Source of the DNA: Frankiaceae bacterium
Lineage (GTDB): Bacteria > Actinomycetota > Actinomycetes > BP-191
Assembly (NCBI GenBank): GCA_035556555.1
Contig: DATMES010000027.1
Span: 62,001-126,000, forward strand
Reading direction: 5' to 3'
Length of the DNA stretch: 64,000 bases
Of the stretch, positions 7,723 through 27,363 are shown piece by piece. How positions within the stretch are numbered: the stretch's first letter is position 1; every line of letters starts with the position of its first letter. The position numbers and the translations under genes are program-made. Below the pieces are notes generated by a model. The model did no database searches, had not been told where the DNA came from, and worked only from the letters and a program-made list of their open reading frames with translations.

Positions 7723-7809
7723 CGACCCTCCTCCGAGATCGCTCCGACAAGGCTACGGTGCGCCGGCAAACCGCTGGGGTTGACAGGTTTTCAGAACTTT
7801 TTTTCGGGC

Positions 7810-22232: not shown

Positions 22233-22800
22233 ACTTGGCGCGGTGCGCCGTCCGGGCCTCGTACGCCGCGATGTCGGCCTCGTGCCGCAGGGTCAGGCCG
22301 ATGTCGTCCAGCCCCTCCACCAGCCGCGTGCGCGTGAAGTCGTCGATCTCGAACGACGCCACGACGTCGCCGCAGGTCACCGTCCGCGCGTCCAGGTCGA
22401 CGGTCGCCGACGCGGGCGCCGCGTCCTGCAGCGCGGTCACCACGTCCTCGGGCAGCACGACCGTGAGCAGGCCGACCTTGGCGGCGTTGCCGCGGAAGAT
22501 GTCCGCGAACGACGGTGCGATGACGACGCGGAAGCCGTAGTCGTCCAGCGCCCACACCGCGTGCTCGCGCGACGACCCGCAGCCGAACGACGGCCCCGCC
22601 ACGAGGACCGACCCCCCGGCGTACGCCGGGTCGTTCAGCACGAACGACGGGTCCTCCCGCCACTGCCCGAACAACCCCTCCCCGTAGCCGGTCCGCGACA
22701 CCCGCTTGAGCCACTCCGACGCGATGATCTGGTCGGTGTCCACGCTCGCCCGCCGCAGCGGCACGAGCCCGCCGGCGTACGGCACGGGAAACGCCCTCAC
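22228..22800 (-). CDS. leuD: 3-isopropylmalate dehydratase small subunit
   Basis: A 190-residue subunit that pairs with LeuC to isomerise 2- to 3-isopropylmalate in leucine synthesis. It shows the family landmarks [14 protein letters not shown] near 20-33, [13 protein letters not shown] near 70 and [13 protein letters not shown] near 100. The GTG start overlaps the leuC stop (GTGA). It is the last gene of leuABCD, and its stop codon lies inside the edge of a palindrome that may end the operon. Confidence 0.97.
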
Positions 22801-24140
22801 GACAGGTCCGCGGGCGTCGCGAAGCGGCCGAGCACGGCGGTCGCCGCGGCGACCGGGGGAGAGACGAGGTGGGTACGACCGCCCGGCCCCTGCCGCCCCT
22901 CGAAGTTGCGGTTCGACGTGGACGCGCAGCGCTCGCCGGGCGCGAGGACGTCGGGGTTCATGCCGAGGCACATCGAGCACCCCGCCGACCGCCACTCGAA
23001 GCCCGCGTCGCGGAACACGACGTCGAGACCCTCCGCCTCCGCCTGCGCCTTGACGAGCATCGAGCCCGGCACGACCAGCGCCCGCACCCCGTCGGCGACG
23101 TGCCGCCCCCGCAGGACGGAAGCCGCCGCGCGGAGGTCGGAGAGGCGGGCGTTGGTGCACGACCCCACGAACACCGCGTCCACCGCTACGTCACGCATCG
23201 CCGTCCCCGGCGTGAGGCCCATGTACGCCAGCGCGTGCGGGTCGCCGTCGGGCACCACCCCGGAGACCGGCACGGCCTGCGCGGGGTTGGTGCCCCATGT
23301 CACGAACGGCCGCACCGACGCCGCGTCCACGGTCACCGTCGTGTCGAACGACGCACCGTCGTCGGTCACCAGCGACGACCACTCCGCCTCCCTGCCCGAG
23401 GGTGCGTGCGGGCGGCCGCGCAGGTAGGCGTACGTCGTCTCGTCCGGCGCCACCATGCCCGCCCGCGCGCCGGCCTCGATCGACATGTTGCACAGCGTCA
23501 TGCGGCCCTCCATGGAGAGGCCGCGCACGGCGTCGCCGCGGTACTCGATCACGTGCCCCGCCCCGCCGCCCGTGCCCAGCGCGGCGACGACCGCGAGCGC
23601 CAGGTCCTTCGCCGTGACGTCGTCCGCCAGGTCTCCGACGACCTCGACGGCCATCGACTTCGGCCGGGAGACGGGAAGCGTCTGCGTCGCGAGCACGTGC
23701 TCGACCTCGGTCGTCCCGATCCCGAACGCCAGCGCCCCGAACGCCCCGTGCGTCGACGTGTGCGAGTCGCCGCAGACGATCGTCATGCCGGGCTGCGTAC
23801 GGCCCTGCTCCGGCGCGACGACGTGCACGATGCCCTGCCCGTCGGAGCCGCGCGCGTAGAGCTTGATGCCGAACTCCGCGCAGTTCTTCCGCAGCGCCTC
23901 GAGCTGGGCCAGCGACACGGGGTCGGTGACGGGGCCGTCGGTCGTGGGGACGTTGTGGTCCTCGACGGCGAGCGTCAGGTCGGGCCGCCGCACGCCCCGT
24001 CCCGCGAGCCGCAGCCCGTCGAACGCCTGCGGCGACGTCACCTCGTGCACGAGGTGGAGGTCCACGTACAGCAGGTCCGGCTCGCCGGGCGCGGAGCGGA
24101 CGACGTGCGCGTCCCAGACCTTCTCGAACAGCGTCCTCAT
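22797..24140 (-). CDS. leuC: 3-isopropylmalate dehydratase large subunit
   Basis: A 447-residue aconitase-family subunit. Its 4Fe-4S cluster ligands are Cys in [11 protein letters not shown] (near 332) and the pair in CSMCLG (near 392-395); substrate motifs include [13 protein letters not shown] and [10 protein letters not shown]. It works with LeuD. The ATG overlaps the leuB stop (ATGA) and is immediately preceded by a copy of the 52-bp spacer repeat, which here is read as the last codons of leuB. Confidence 0.98.
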
Positions 24141-25153
24141 TCCGGGGCCCCCGCGGCCGCGCGCAGCGCGGTCGTGGGGTGGAGCCGGCCCACGATCTCG
24201 TCGCCCGCGACCTTCGTCGGTACGCCGCCGGAGGGCCGGTCGCGCAGCCACGACTCCACCGCCGCGTCCACCCGCGCGGCCGCGGCGTCCTCGCCGAGAT
24301 GTGAGAGCAGCAGCGCGGCCGAGCGCACCGCCGCGACCGGGTCGGCCACGCCCTGCCCGGCGATGTCCGGCGCCGAGCCGTGCACCGGCTCGAACATGCT
24401 CGGGTTGGCACGCGTCGTGTCGACGTTGCCGCTCGCGGCCATGCCGATGCCGCCCGAGACCGCGGCCGCGAGGTCGGTGAGGATGTCGCCGAACAGGTTG
24501 TCCGTCACGACGACGTCGAAGCGCCCGGGATCGTTGACGAGATGGAGGCAGGCGGCATCCACGTGGCAGTACGCCGTCTCGACGTCGGGGAACTCCTCGC
24601 CGACCTCCGTGAACGTCCGCGACCAGAGGTAGCCGGCGTACGCCAGCACGTTCGTCTTGTGCACGAGGGTCAGGTGCCCGCGCCGCTGCCCCGCCCGCCG
24701 GAACGCGTCGCGCACGACCCGCTCGACGCCGTACCGCGTGTTGATGCTCTCCTCGGTCGCGACCTCGTACGGCGTCCCCTCGCGCAGCGTGCCTCCGGCG
24801 CCGACGTACGGGCCCTCGGTCCCCTCGCGCACGAACACGCAGTCGATCCCGGGACCGACGACCGGGCGCAGGTTGACGTGGTGGTCGAGCGCGAAGCGCA
24901 GCTTCAGCAGCAGCCCGCGCTCCAGAACACCGGGGGGTACGGCGGGGTCCCCGACCGCGCCGAGCAGCAGCGCGTCGTACGTCCGCAGCTCCTCCAGGGT
25001 CGCGTCGGGCAAGGTCTCCCCGGTCGCCAGCCACCGCTGAGCGCCGAGGTCGAACGACGTCGCGTCCACGTGCGTCACCGCGCGCAGCACCTGCAGCGCG
25101 ACGTCCGTGACCTCCGGCCCGATCCCGTCGCCGGGGATGACTCCGAGTCTCAT
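24137..25153 (-). CDS. leuB: 3-isopropylmalate dehydrogenase
   Basis: A 338-residue NAD-dependent oxidative decarboxylase, third step of leucine synthesis. It starts [15 protein letters not shown] and shows the substrate/metal motif [11 protein letters not shown] (near 232-242) and the NAD-binding [13 protein letters not shown] (near 263). The C-terminus, about 12 residues ([10 protein letters not shown] and just before), is encoded by a degenerate copy of the 52-bp spacer repeat, so the gene seems to have grown into a repeat that once separated it from leuC. Another copy fills the gap between leuA and this gene. Confidence 0.97.
24141..24187 (-). repeat. Family G spacer repeat, copy 1 (inside leuB end)
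   Basis: Reading in the direction of transcription it starts CCACCCCACGACCGCG and ends GGCCGCGGGGGCCCCGGA directly before the leuC ATG. It is about five bases shorter than the other copies and is translated as the leuB C-terminus. Confidence 0.75.
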
Positions 25154-25205
25154 CTCGGGGCCCCCGCCGCGGCGCGAGCGCAGCGAGCGGCGTCGTGGGG
25201 ATACC
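25154..25205 (-). repeat. Family G 52-bp spacer repeat, copy 2
   Basis: Fills the entire 52-bp space from the leuA stop to the leuB ATG. In transcription direction: CCCCACGACGCCGCTCGCTG, then CGCTCGCGCC, ending GGCGGGGGCCCCGAG before ATG. CCCC-ACGAC can pair with the GC-rich GGGG near the start codon. No normal AGGAGG site is present. Confidence 0.85.
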
Positions 25206-26750
25206 TCATGGCTTGTCCGTGCGGTGGGGGACGGCGGTGCCGCCGAGAGCCTTGTTGACGGCGTTGAGGAACGCCCGTGCCGACGCCTCCACGACGTCCG
25301 CCGAGACGCCGCGCGCGACGACGCGCGAGCCGCCGACCTCGACGGTGACGGACACGTCGCCGACGGCGTCCGACCCCTCGTCGACCGCCGCGACCTGGAA
25401 CGCCAGCAGCCGCGCGGGCACGCCCACCGCGGCGACGACGGCGTTGCACGCGGCGTCCACCATGCCGTCGCCCGTGGCGGTCTCCGACACGACGACGCCG
25501 TCGCGCGAGAGCCGTACGGTCGCCGTCGGGTCGCTGTCGGTCGAGTGCGCGACAGAGAGCGCATCGAACACCCACGCGCCGACGTCGGACGACGCGCCGA
25601 AGCCCGCCTCCTCGGTGACGAGCGCGATGAGGTCGTTGTCGGTGACGGTCGCCTTGCGGTCGGCGAGGGTCTTGAAGCGCACGAACGCCCGCTCCACCGC
25701 GTCGGCGTCGTGGCCGTACCCGAGCCTGGTCAGCGCGTCGACGAACGCGTGCCGCCCCGAGTGCTTGCCGAGCACGATCGTGGAGCCGGTGAGGCCGACG
25801 TCCTCGGGGTTCATGATCTCGTACGTCGTCCGCTCCATGAGGACACCGTGCTGGTGGATGCCGGACTCGTGGGAGAAGGCGTTGGCGCCGACGACGGACT
25901 TGTTCGGCTGCACGGGGTAGCCCGCGAGCATCGACACGAGCCGCGACGTGCGTGTGATCTCGCGGGTGTCGATGCCGGTCTCGAAGCCGAGCGTGGGGGA
26001 GTGCGTCCGCAGCGCCATGACGACCTCCTCGAGGGCGGCGTTGCCCGCCCGCTCGCCGATGCCGTTGACGCAGACCTCGACCTGCCGGGCACCGGCCCGT
26101 ACGGCGGCGAGGGAGTTGGCGGTCGCGAGGCCGAGGTCGTTGTGGCAGTGGACCGACCAGACGACGTTCTCGGCGCCGGGGACGCGTGCCCGCAGCGTGT
26201 CGAGGATCGCGACGAACTCCTCCGGCATGACGAAGCCGACGGTGTCGGGGACGTTGATGGTGGTGGCGCCGTTCTCGATCGCGGCGGTGAACACGTCGAC
26301 GAGGAACGCCATCTCCGTCCGCGTCGCGTCCTCCGCGGAGAACTCGACGTCGGGTGTGAGCGACGAGGCATGACGTACCGCGCGCACGGTCTCCGCGAGC
26401 ACCTGCTCCGGCGTCATGCGCAGCTTCTTCTCGCGATGGATCGGCGAGGTCGAGATGAACGTGTGGATGCGCGGCCGCTCGGCCGGCTTGATCGCGTCCC
26501 AGGCGCGTTCGACGTCCTCCTCGCGGGTACGGCACAGCGCCGCGACGGTCGCGCCGCGCACCTCCTCGGCGATGGCGCGGACGCCCTCGAAGTCGCCGTC
26601 GCTCGCGGCGGGGAAGCCCGCCTCGATGACGTCCACGCCGAGGCGCGCGAGCTGGTGGGCGATCTCGAGCTTCTCGGTGACGTTGAGCGCGATGCCTGGG
26701 GACTGCTCGCCGTCGCGGAGGCTGGTGTCGAAGATCGTCACGCGTTCCAT
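25206..26750 (-). CDS. leuA: 2-isopropylmalate synthase
   Basis: A 514-residue enzyme that condenses acetyl-CoA with 2-oxoisovalerate, the committed step of leucine synthesis and normally inhibited by leucine. The TIM-barrel domain carries [13 protein letters not shown] near the N-terminus, the metal ligands in [13 protein letters not shown] (near 200) and [13 protein letters not shown], and [11 protein letters not shown] (near 295). The C-terminal 120 residues form the LeuA regulatory domain. The length matches the E. coli-type enzyme and not the roughly 600-residue form of mycobacteria. It is preceded by a leader-peptide attenuator and heads leuABCD. Confidence 0.97.
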
Positions 26751-26773
26751 CGGTGGACCCTTCTGCAGGAAAC

Positions 26774-26803
26774 AAAAAACCTCCCGTCCCAGTGGACGAG
26801 AGG
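26774..26803 (-). terminator. Attenuator terminator before leuA
   Basis: In transcription direction, stem CCTCTCGTCC and GGACGGGAGG (10 bp, one G-U pair) with a four-base loop, directly followed by six Ts, ending 23 bp before the leuA ATG. It is the only classical T-tailed terminator I found in the window. Together with the leader peptide upstream it forms an attenuator. Confidence 0.88.
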
Positions 26804-26805
26804 TC

Positions 26806-26835
26806 AGCGCGCCGGCGAGGTGCCGCGGGCGCGCT
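26806..26835 (-). promoter_or_regulatory. Alternative stem of the leu leader
   Basis: Perfect 8-bp stem (AGCGCGCC with GGCGCGCT, 14-base loop) that begins directly after the leader-peptide stop codon and ends two bases before the terminator stem. A ribosome at the stop codon would cover it, whereas one stalled on the leucine codons would leave it free, so it may be part of the switching structure. The exact antiterminator pairing is not settled by eye. Confidence 0.5.
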
Positions 26836-26859
26836 CTACGTAAGGAGCAGGTTCGTCAT
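26836..26859 (-). CDS. Leucine leader peptide MTNLLLT
   Basis: An 8-codon frame with ATG at 26857-26859: Met-Thr-Asn, then three successive leucine codons (CTG, CTC, CTT), Thr, TAG. It lies between the end of the cyclic-nucleotide-binding gene and the leuA terminator hairpin. When charged tRNA-Leu is scarce a ribosome should stall on these codons and change the downstream fold so that the terminator does not form. Three leucines in seven residues at this exact place are very unlikely by chance. The ribosome site is weak. Confidence 0.82.
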
Positions 26860-26868
26860 CGCGGCCGA

Positions 26869-27363
26869 CTATGCCACAGCGTCTCGGGCCGCGTACGCCC
26901 AATGCGTGTACGCGGGCGAGTCGCTCGCCTCGCGCAACCTGCGGGCCAGCGTCGCGAGCAGCCGCTTGGCGACCGACGGGTGGCGGTCGAGCAGGTCGCC
27001 GAACGACCTCGGCTCCAGCACCAGCAGCTCCATGTCGGTCAGTGCCGTGACGGTCGCGGTGCGCGGCGCGGTGTCGAGCAGCGCCATCTCGCCGACGCAC
27101 TCGCCGGCGCCGATCGTCGCGATGCGCTTGCCGCGTACGGTCGCCTCGGCCTCGCCCGACACGACGACGAAGCACTCGCGCCCCGGCGTCCCCTCGGTGG
27201 TCAGCGCGTCGCCTTGCTTGACCGACAGCTCGTCGACGAGGCCGGCGATGTCGTTGAGCTCCTTCCGCGTGCAGAGCCCGAAGAGTGCGACGTCGCGCAG
27301 GATCTCGACCTTGCGGCTCTTGCTGCGCACGACGCGCCTCCCCTTGTCCGGATGTGTCCGCAT
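26869..27363 (-). CDS. Stand-alone cyclic nucleotide-binding domain protein
   Basis: A 164-residue protein consisting of a CRP-type cyclic nucleotide-binding fold (about 20-145), with the phosphate-binding cassette region around [19 protein letters not shown] (near 93-111), where Gly-Glu and Arg-Thr in the ligand-binding positions are retained. There is no DNA-binding domain after it, so it is not a complete CRP regulator; it may sense cAMP or cGMP and act on a partner protein. The ATG at 27363 gives a basic start; a GTG 11 codons in is an alternative. It is divergent from pdxS. Confidence 0.88.

Follow-up and report, generated by a model that had tools for sequence, protein, structure and literature searches.

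A probable leucine attenuator with a stop-codon hairpin abutting the terminator, upstream of leuA-leuB-leuC in a Frankiaceae bacterium

Genes and features upstream of leuA

The window analyzed in this study is a stretch of 64,000 nucleotides from a Frankiaceae bacterium (contig DATMES010000027.1, positions 62,001 to 126,000), and all coordinates below are those of the window. Three leucine biosynthesis genes, leuA, leuB and leuC, lie on its minus strand, and their products all score over the curated NCBIfam cut-offs. The features considered here are listed in the direction of transcription, with the means of their identification in brackets.

26869-27363, minus strand: upstream gene of cyclic-nucleotide-binding type, ending 9 nt before the leader ATG (open reading frame)
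26868..26873, minus strand: -10-like hexamer CATAGT, 8 nt 5' of the leader ATG (sequence reading and relatives)
26836..26859, minus strand: leader open reading frame leuL, MTNLLLT and stop, from ATG to TAG (sequence reading)
26842..26850, minus strand: three adjacent leucine codons, CTG CTC CTT (sequence reading)
26806..26835, minus strand: stem-loop 1, its first base directly after the stop codon (fold prediction)
26778..26805, minus strand: intrinsic terminator hairpin with 12 pairs and a gap of 0 to stem 1 (terminator scan and fold)
26774..26779, minus strand: T6 tract of the terminator (T-run scan)
26758..26764, minus strand: AGAAGGG, probable leuA Shine-Dalgarno sequence, outside both hairpins (by eye)
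25206..26750, minus strand: leuA, 2-isopropylmalate synthase, bacterial type TIGR00973 (NCBIfam profile)
24137..25162, minus strand: leuB, 3-isopropylmalate dehydrogenase (NCBIfam profile)
22797..24200, minus strand: leuC, 3-isopropylmalate dehydratase large subunit; the interval is the searched stretch, which begins 5' of the gene (NCBIfam profile)

The leader leuL reads ATG ACG AAC CTG CTC CTT ACG TAG, that is, seven residues plus a stop codon at 26838-26836 on the minus strand. The third leucine codon, CTT, is rare and accounts for 15 of the 1050 leucine codons (1.4%) in 23 open reading frames of the window that were selected by GC-by-position rules. Two frames of 5 to 12 codons with three adjacent leucines were counted on both strands of the window, and a short frame of this kind is thus not rare by itself.

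Stem 1 is formed by AGCGCGCC and GGCGCGCT, in which 26835-26828 pair with 26813-26806 to give 8 bp, with 3 further inner bp. The arms of the terminator that follows, 26805-26794 and 26789-26778, are paired along their whole length, and the terminator ends 23 nt 5' of leuA. Folding of the 112 nt from 26751 to 26862 gave -51.9 kcal/mol (z -3.40), a value equalled by 1 of 200 shuffled sequences. Nine terminator-like sites were detected across the whole window, about the number given by shuffles, and among these nine listed sites the combination of an unbroken T run with a 12-pair stem was found only at the leuA terminator. A second T run, T7 at 7798-7804 on the plus strand, is present in this window of 73% GC without a listed terminator-like hairpin.

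These results bear on several claims of the initial annotation. Three adjacent leucine codons in an 8-codon frame (minus strand, 26859-26836), an 8-bp stem whose first base immediately follows the leader stop codon, and a T-tailed terminator before leuA, with 12 pairs and T6, were all borne out. The description of this terminator as the only T-tailed one in the window holds in substance in the scans of the whole window, by the comparison of the nine listed sites. The leader had further been called very short; short it is, but not outside the usual range, since the leaders of the relatives described below span 6-23 residues (mode 11).

Distribution of the element among relatives

Upstream regions of LeuA homologues were fetched by protein similarity alone, which yielded 120 regions. 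A short open reading frame with three adjacent leucines was found in 28 of them and a T-tailed hairpin in 15, and both occurred within 110 nt of each other in 12 of the 120 regions, compared with 3.5 expected. A genome of the same genus, G001, carries the leader MKHLLLIESARH followed by a stop codon and nearly the same terminator as the window; its stem 1, read by eye, has 7 bp with the stop codon in the loop. Another genome of the genus, G002 (99% complete), contains no LeuA of the window type, with only a weak match (E 4e-8), and no TIGR00970 match, and its leuA may have been lost or may be missing from the assembly. Leaders in more distant loci include MITKNLLLLM and MITKNILLLM in the Acidimicrobiales loci L034 and L035, MRSFGLELLLR in the Acidimicrobiia locus L037 and MSQNLLLT in G107, each followed by a stop codon.

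Two other arrangements were seen upstream of leuA. In five loci from Nitriliruptoraceae, Egibacteraceae and other actinobacteria (L065, L096, L212, L213 and L219), leuA leaders ending in a leucine run have a long GC stem right at the stop codon without a T tail, which is perhaps a third variant. In some families (L118, L123, L132, L128 and L138), leuA has no leader of its own and lies closely 3' of a gene that reads, by its C-terminal sequence, as ilvC.

A strict pattern (Leu-Leu-Leu-X-stop, a hairpin-sized gap, CCYC, GGRGG and T6) was then applied at the genome level. It matched in 63 of the 395 genomes of the class to which G333 belongs and in only 1 of 393 from the window's own class, which is the genome that contains the window, while the reversed pattern used as control gave 0 matches in both sets (0/395 in the former). 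The class of G333 is probably Acidimicrobiia, because the named locus L037 groups with members of the G333 family in the LeuA tree. Since the strict pattern is common in this related class and its reversal is absent from both genome sets, the arrangement at 26774-26859 is, on these comparisons, not due to chance, and its relatives are found mainly in Acidimicrobiia-like genomes rather than in the window's class. In 61 of the 63 cases, a LeuA homologue follows the match on the same strand at a distance of 39-295 nt; 23 of these homologues are of the window type and 38 of another isopropylmalate-synthase-like type, as judged by lower identity. In one further locus (L287, in G663), the leader, stem and terminator precede the leucyl-tRNA synthetase gene leuS, and in the last (L272) the contig stops 41 nt past the element, so that the downstream gene cannot be judged. 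A leucine gene thus follows all 62 judgeable matches. Alignment of leuA upstream regions of relatives for the leader and stems had been proposed as a check, and conservation was found in G001, in the homology sample and in the 63 of 395 genomes with the pattern. The terminator 3' arm beside the T tract reads GGRGG in the 63 elements, which is Shine-Dalgarno-like and complementary to leucine codons, and the same arm was present in 13 loci found without the pattern.

Codon choice in the leader is also conserved. The start of each leader was taken as the in-frame ATG or GTG nearest the leucine run, without use of promoter signals, and such a start is present in 63 of 63 pattern relatives. CTT is the third leucine codon in 47 of 63 elements. 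In 12 of 63 the second is CTA, a poor pairing partner for the G-rich arm of the terminator. This use of CTA speaks for codon speed rather than base pairing as the cause of the codon choice. Rare codons have been proposed to sharpen attenuation, a view also called an oversimplification (PMC1183508).

Promoter signals were found at a consistent distance from these starts. In 40 of 63 relatives, a [TC]AnnnT box ends 5-9 nt 5' of the start chosen in this way (6.0 expected from offset controls), and TTGAC occurs at -40 to -24 in 23 of 63 (1.0 in the control). The window's own -35 sequence is weak. In S. lividans, start sites in general are described as having a TAnnnT box some 6 nt upstream, and leuL2 (before leuS) and leuL1 (before leuA) are reported to be leaderless leucine-rich leaders (PMC8079986). 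Because of the promoter spacing in the relatives and this precedent, the leuL leader is likely to be leaderless, its transcript starting at or beside the ATG. The CATAGT box overlaps the TAG stop codon (26871-26869) of the upstream gene, and a longer transcript could thus also enter the leuL region. An explanation by the promoter only was dropped, as the terminator and stem 1 are conserved as well.

Three genomes of the window's class, G011, G012 and G008 (the Frankiaceae MAG contig of L032), encode LeuA proteins 75-76% identical to that of the window. In the LeuA tree they join the window and G001 at 100/100, inside an Actinomycetota group. Upstream of leuA these three genomes show, by eye, no T tail; they carry the layout of the LEU element, with a loop complementary to downstream sequence and leucine codons facing the Shine-Dalgarno sequence. 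From this reading of the upstream regions, two kinds of control, the terminator and the LEU element, precede sister leuA genes. A horizontal origin of leuA was considered as well; the deeper branch order of the LeuA tree is not firm, and no donor is named.

Pairing tests and alternative explanations

MAFFT alignments misplaced the stems, so no covariance model was built, and the pattern search and a hairpin-anchored comparison were used instead. The structure tests covered 63 elements, comprising 62 relatives and the window, with G574 left out. In every one of the 63 elements the start of stem 1 falls between -2 and +2 nt relative to the stop codon; 30 of them have no gap separating stem 1 from the terminator, and the gap never exceeds 5 nt. 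The stem-1 arms pair better with their own partners than with swapped ones (-18.0 versus -11.2 kcal/mol; 57 non-redundant elements, p 0.0005), and positions 1 and 3 to 10 past the stop codon show all of the pair types GC, CG and AT. At full length the two helices overlap by at least 1 nt in 37 of 63 elements, mostly by 1-3 nt; in the window the overlap is 0 and the core gap 2.

In view of the leader, the two hairpins and their conservation before leucine genes, the region 26774-26859 very probably controls leuA-leuB-leuC by leucine leader-peptide attenuation through transcription termination. The initial annotation had named it a ribosome-mediated attenuator; the leader, the terminator and the conservation agree with this, but the classical form does not, as stem 1 and the terminator share no competing strand. 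The classical attenuators of E. coli trp and leu switch through a 2:3 preemptor: once the ribosome stalls, strand 2 becomes available to pair with strand 3, the terminator's 5' arm. E. coli leuL and trpL resemble the window in having a leader peptide with regulatory codons, an intrinsic terminator and a biosynthetic operon downstream, and the pairing of strand 2 with strand 3 is marginally better for own than for swapped partners (-4.64 versus -4.36, p 0.046). However, the preemptor of the E. coli attenuators was not found in the window element, and the pairing of the leucine run, strand 1, loop 1 and strand 2 with strands 3 and 4 revealed no shared-strand antiterminator in the 63 elements. 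With a ribosome placed on the first or last leucine codon, strand 3 pairs with upstream RNA at only 0.00 and 0.01 in the window and at 0.03 and 0.18 on average over the 63 elements, compared with 0.62 (trp) and 0.66-0.67 (leu) in the E. coli positive controls under the same stall treatment. Values above 0.5 were reached in 3 of 63 elements with the last leucine codon stalled and in 14 of 63 (mean 0.33) with the ribosome at the stop codon, and the modeled folds suggest that additional pairings may exist in a few relatives. As stem 1 and the terminator have no common strand to compete for, we regard classical attenuation as improbable.

Translational control of the type of the LEU element, which was described upstream of leuA in Actinobacteria by Seliverstov et al. 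2005 (PMC1262725), is very improbable here. In such control the leucine codons would pair with the Shine-Dalgarno sequence, a pseudoknot would form, and the T-tailed hairpin would be secondary. The likeness is considerable: both elements have a short leader with a leucine run before leuA, a strong stem right after the leucine codons and complementarity of these codons to a downstream G-rich strand, and the sister clade of G011, G012 and G008 carries the LEU layout. In addition, the leucine run pairs well with the Shine-Dalgarno-like GGRGG arm of the terminator (strand 4; own -7.96 versus swapped -7.54, p 0.001). As a switch this pairing was rejected, since the energy is real but the sign is wrong: a ribosome on the leucine codons would favour termination. 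The LEU element as described in PMC1262725 has a base stem to the leuA Shine-Dalgarno sequence, a pseudoknot and no T-tailed terminator. The window element, in contrast, has a conserved T-tailed terminator that abuts stem 1, and its probable leuA Shine-Dalgarno sequence lies outside the hairpins; a base stem is absent from the minimum-energy fold, with at most 5 pairs to AAGGG by eye. Pairing of the stem-1 loop with strand 3 or 4 was no better than in swapped controls across the 63 elements, and a 5-nt ACCUC:GAGGU loop match in the window is absent from G001. In most relatives of the window element the foot of stem 1 coincides with the stop codon, which in the LEU element is located inside the stem. 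The statement that leuA leaders are known in actinobacteria is correct, but the known ones are mostly LEU elements, described without a T-tailed terminator (PMC1262725).

Still less probable is that the hairpin is an ordinary terminator of the upstream cyclic-nucleotide-binding-type gene with a coincidental leucine frame: this gene does end close to the leader on the same strand, but in G001 it does not adjoin leuA while leader and terminator are kept, the layout precedes leuA or leuS in 62 of 63 matches (the last contig being too short), and promoter signals precede the leader start.

Proposed mechanism and comparison with known systems

For attenuation through the leucine leader, the preferred reading, the predicted folds set a constraint. 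The window terminator (strand 4 with strand 3) forms at 0.999 in every imposed ribosome state, and since it is never opened by folding energies alone, the leucine control must come from outside the fold model. A ribosome covers about 13 nt from the first A-site base. This value is similar to the 26-nt ribosome occlusion used for M. tuberculosis ilvB1 (PMC13236596). Applied to the window, this footprint would leave stem 1 free at the first leucine codon, cover about 4 nt of it at the third, and cover the whole 5' arm of the 8-bp helix at the stop codon. As far as pairing shows, leucine would thus decide whether stem 1 is open or closed.

We propose that the transcript begins at the leader ATG or beside it and that a ribosome loads on its 5' end to translate MTN-LLL-T. 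When leucine is present, the ribosome would reach the stop codon, its footprint lying over the entire 5' arm of stem 1, and stem 1 would be open as RNA polymerase passes the following hairpin. The terminator would then form and transcription would end. With leucine scarce, the ribosome would wait on the leucine codons, the last of which is the rare CTT, with its leading edge reaching the foot of stem 1 or barely entering it, and stem 1 would stay closed. Closed stem 1, touching the base of the terminator, would hinder the terminator's final base pairs from forming inside the exit channel, and the polymerase would read on into leuA. For a biosynthetic operon the useful sign is indeed read-through with stem 1 closed and termination with it open. 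The steric step, in which closed stem 1 itself hinders termination, is a tentative proposal about which we are doubtful.

Parts of this scheme have parallels. In M. tuberculosis ilvB1, an antiterminator hairpin just downstream of the leader stop codon is proposed to be masked when a ribosome sits on that codon, which permits the terminator, whereas a stalled ribosome spares the hairpin, much as suggested here; the two ilvB1 folds, antiterminator and terminator, are described as excluding each other, whereas the two hairpins here are neighbours with little or no shared strand (PMC13236596). In the put RNA of HK022, a nascent RNA structure itself suppresses termination, as stem 1 is proposed to do, but it is described without a ribosome, a leader or a link to leucine, so that the analogy extends only to an RNA acting at the polymerase (PMC9378689). 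In S. lividans, a hairpin and a U stretch come after leuL2, which like the G663 element stands before leuS, and leuL1, a leuA leader reported without a typical terminator, is unlike the window (PMC8079986). According to PMC1262725, the reported leader mutations upstream of S. coelicolor leuA did not agree with classical attenuation, and leuA leaders in the phylum may thus not follow the textbook.

No match to Rfam 15 was obtained at gathering level for 11 sources including the leuA region of the window, and a permissive threshold gave only chance-level matches. Our literature search, which included leader peptides and attenuation in Acidimicrobiia, likewise found no description of this variant. 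It is conceivable, though we would not wager on it, that these elements form a class of attenuators free of strand sharing, in which a stop-codon hairpin acts by contact on the terminator, and that this class, undescribed in Rfam 15, is widespread in Acidimicrobiia before leuA, occurs at least once before leuS and has been exchanged with the LEU element between sister lineages.

Attenuators are usually found and explained by two competing RNA folds, but in the conserved set of leucine attenuators described here, with their leader, their terminator and a stop codon fixed at the foot of a hairpin that touches the terminator, no such competition could be found. Two explanations follow: present models lack a hidden interaction, or adjacency by itself is enough to control termination. 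The presence of a terminator or of a Shine-Dalgarno-blocking element before closely related leuA genes helps to explain how regulatory mechanisms change.
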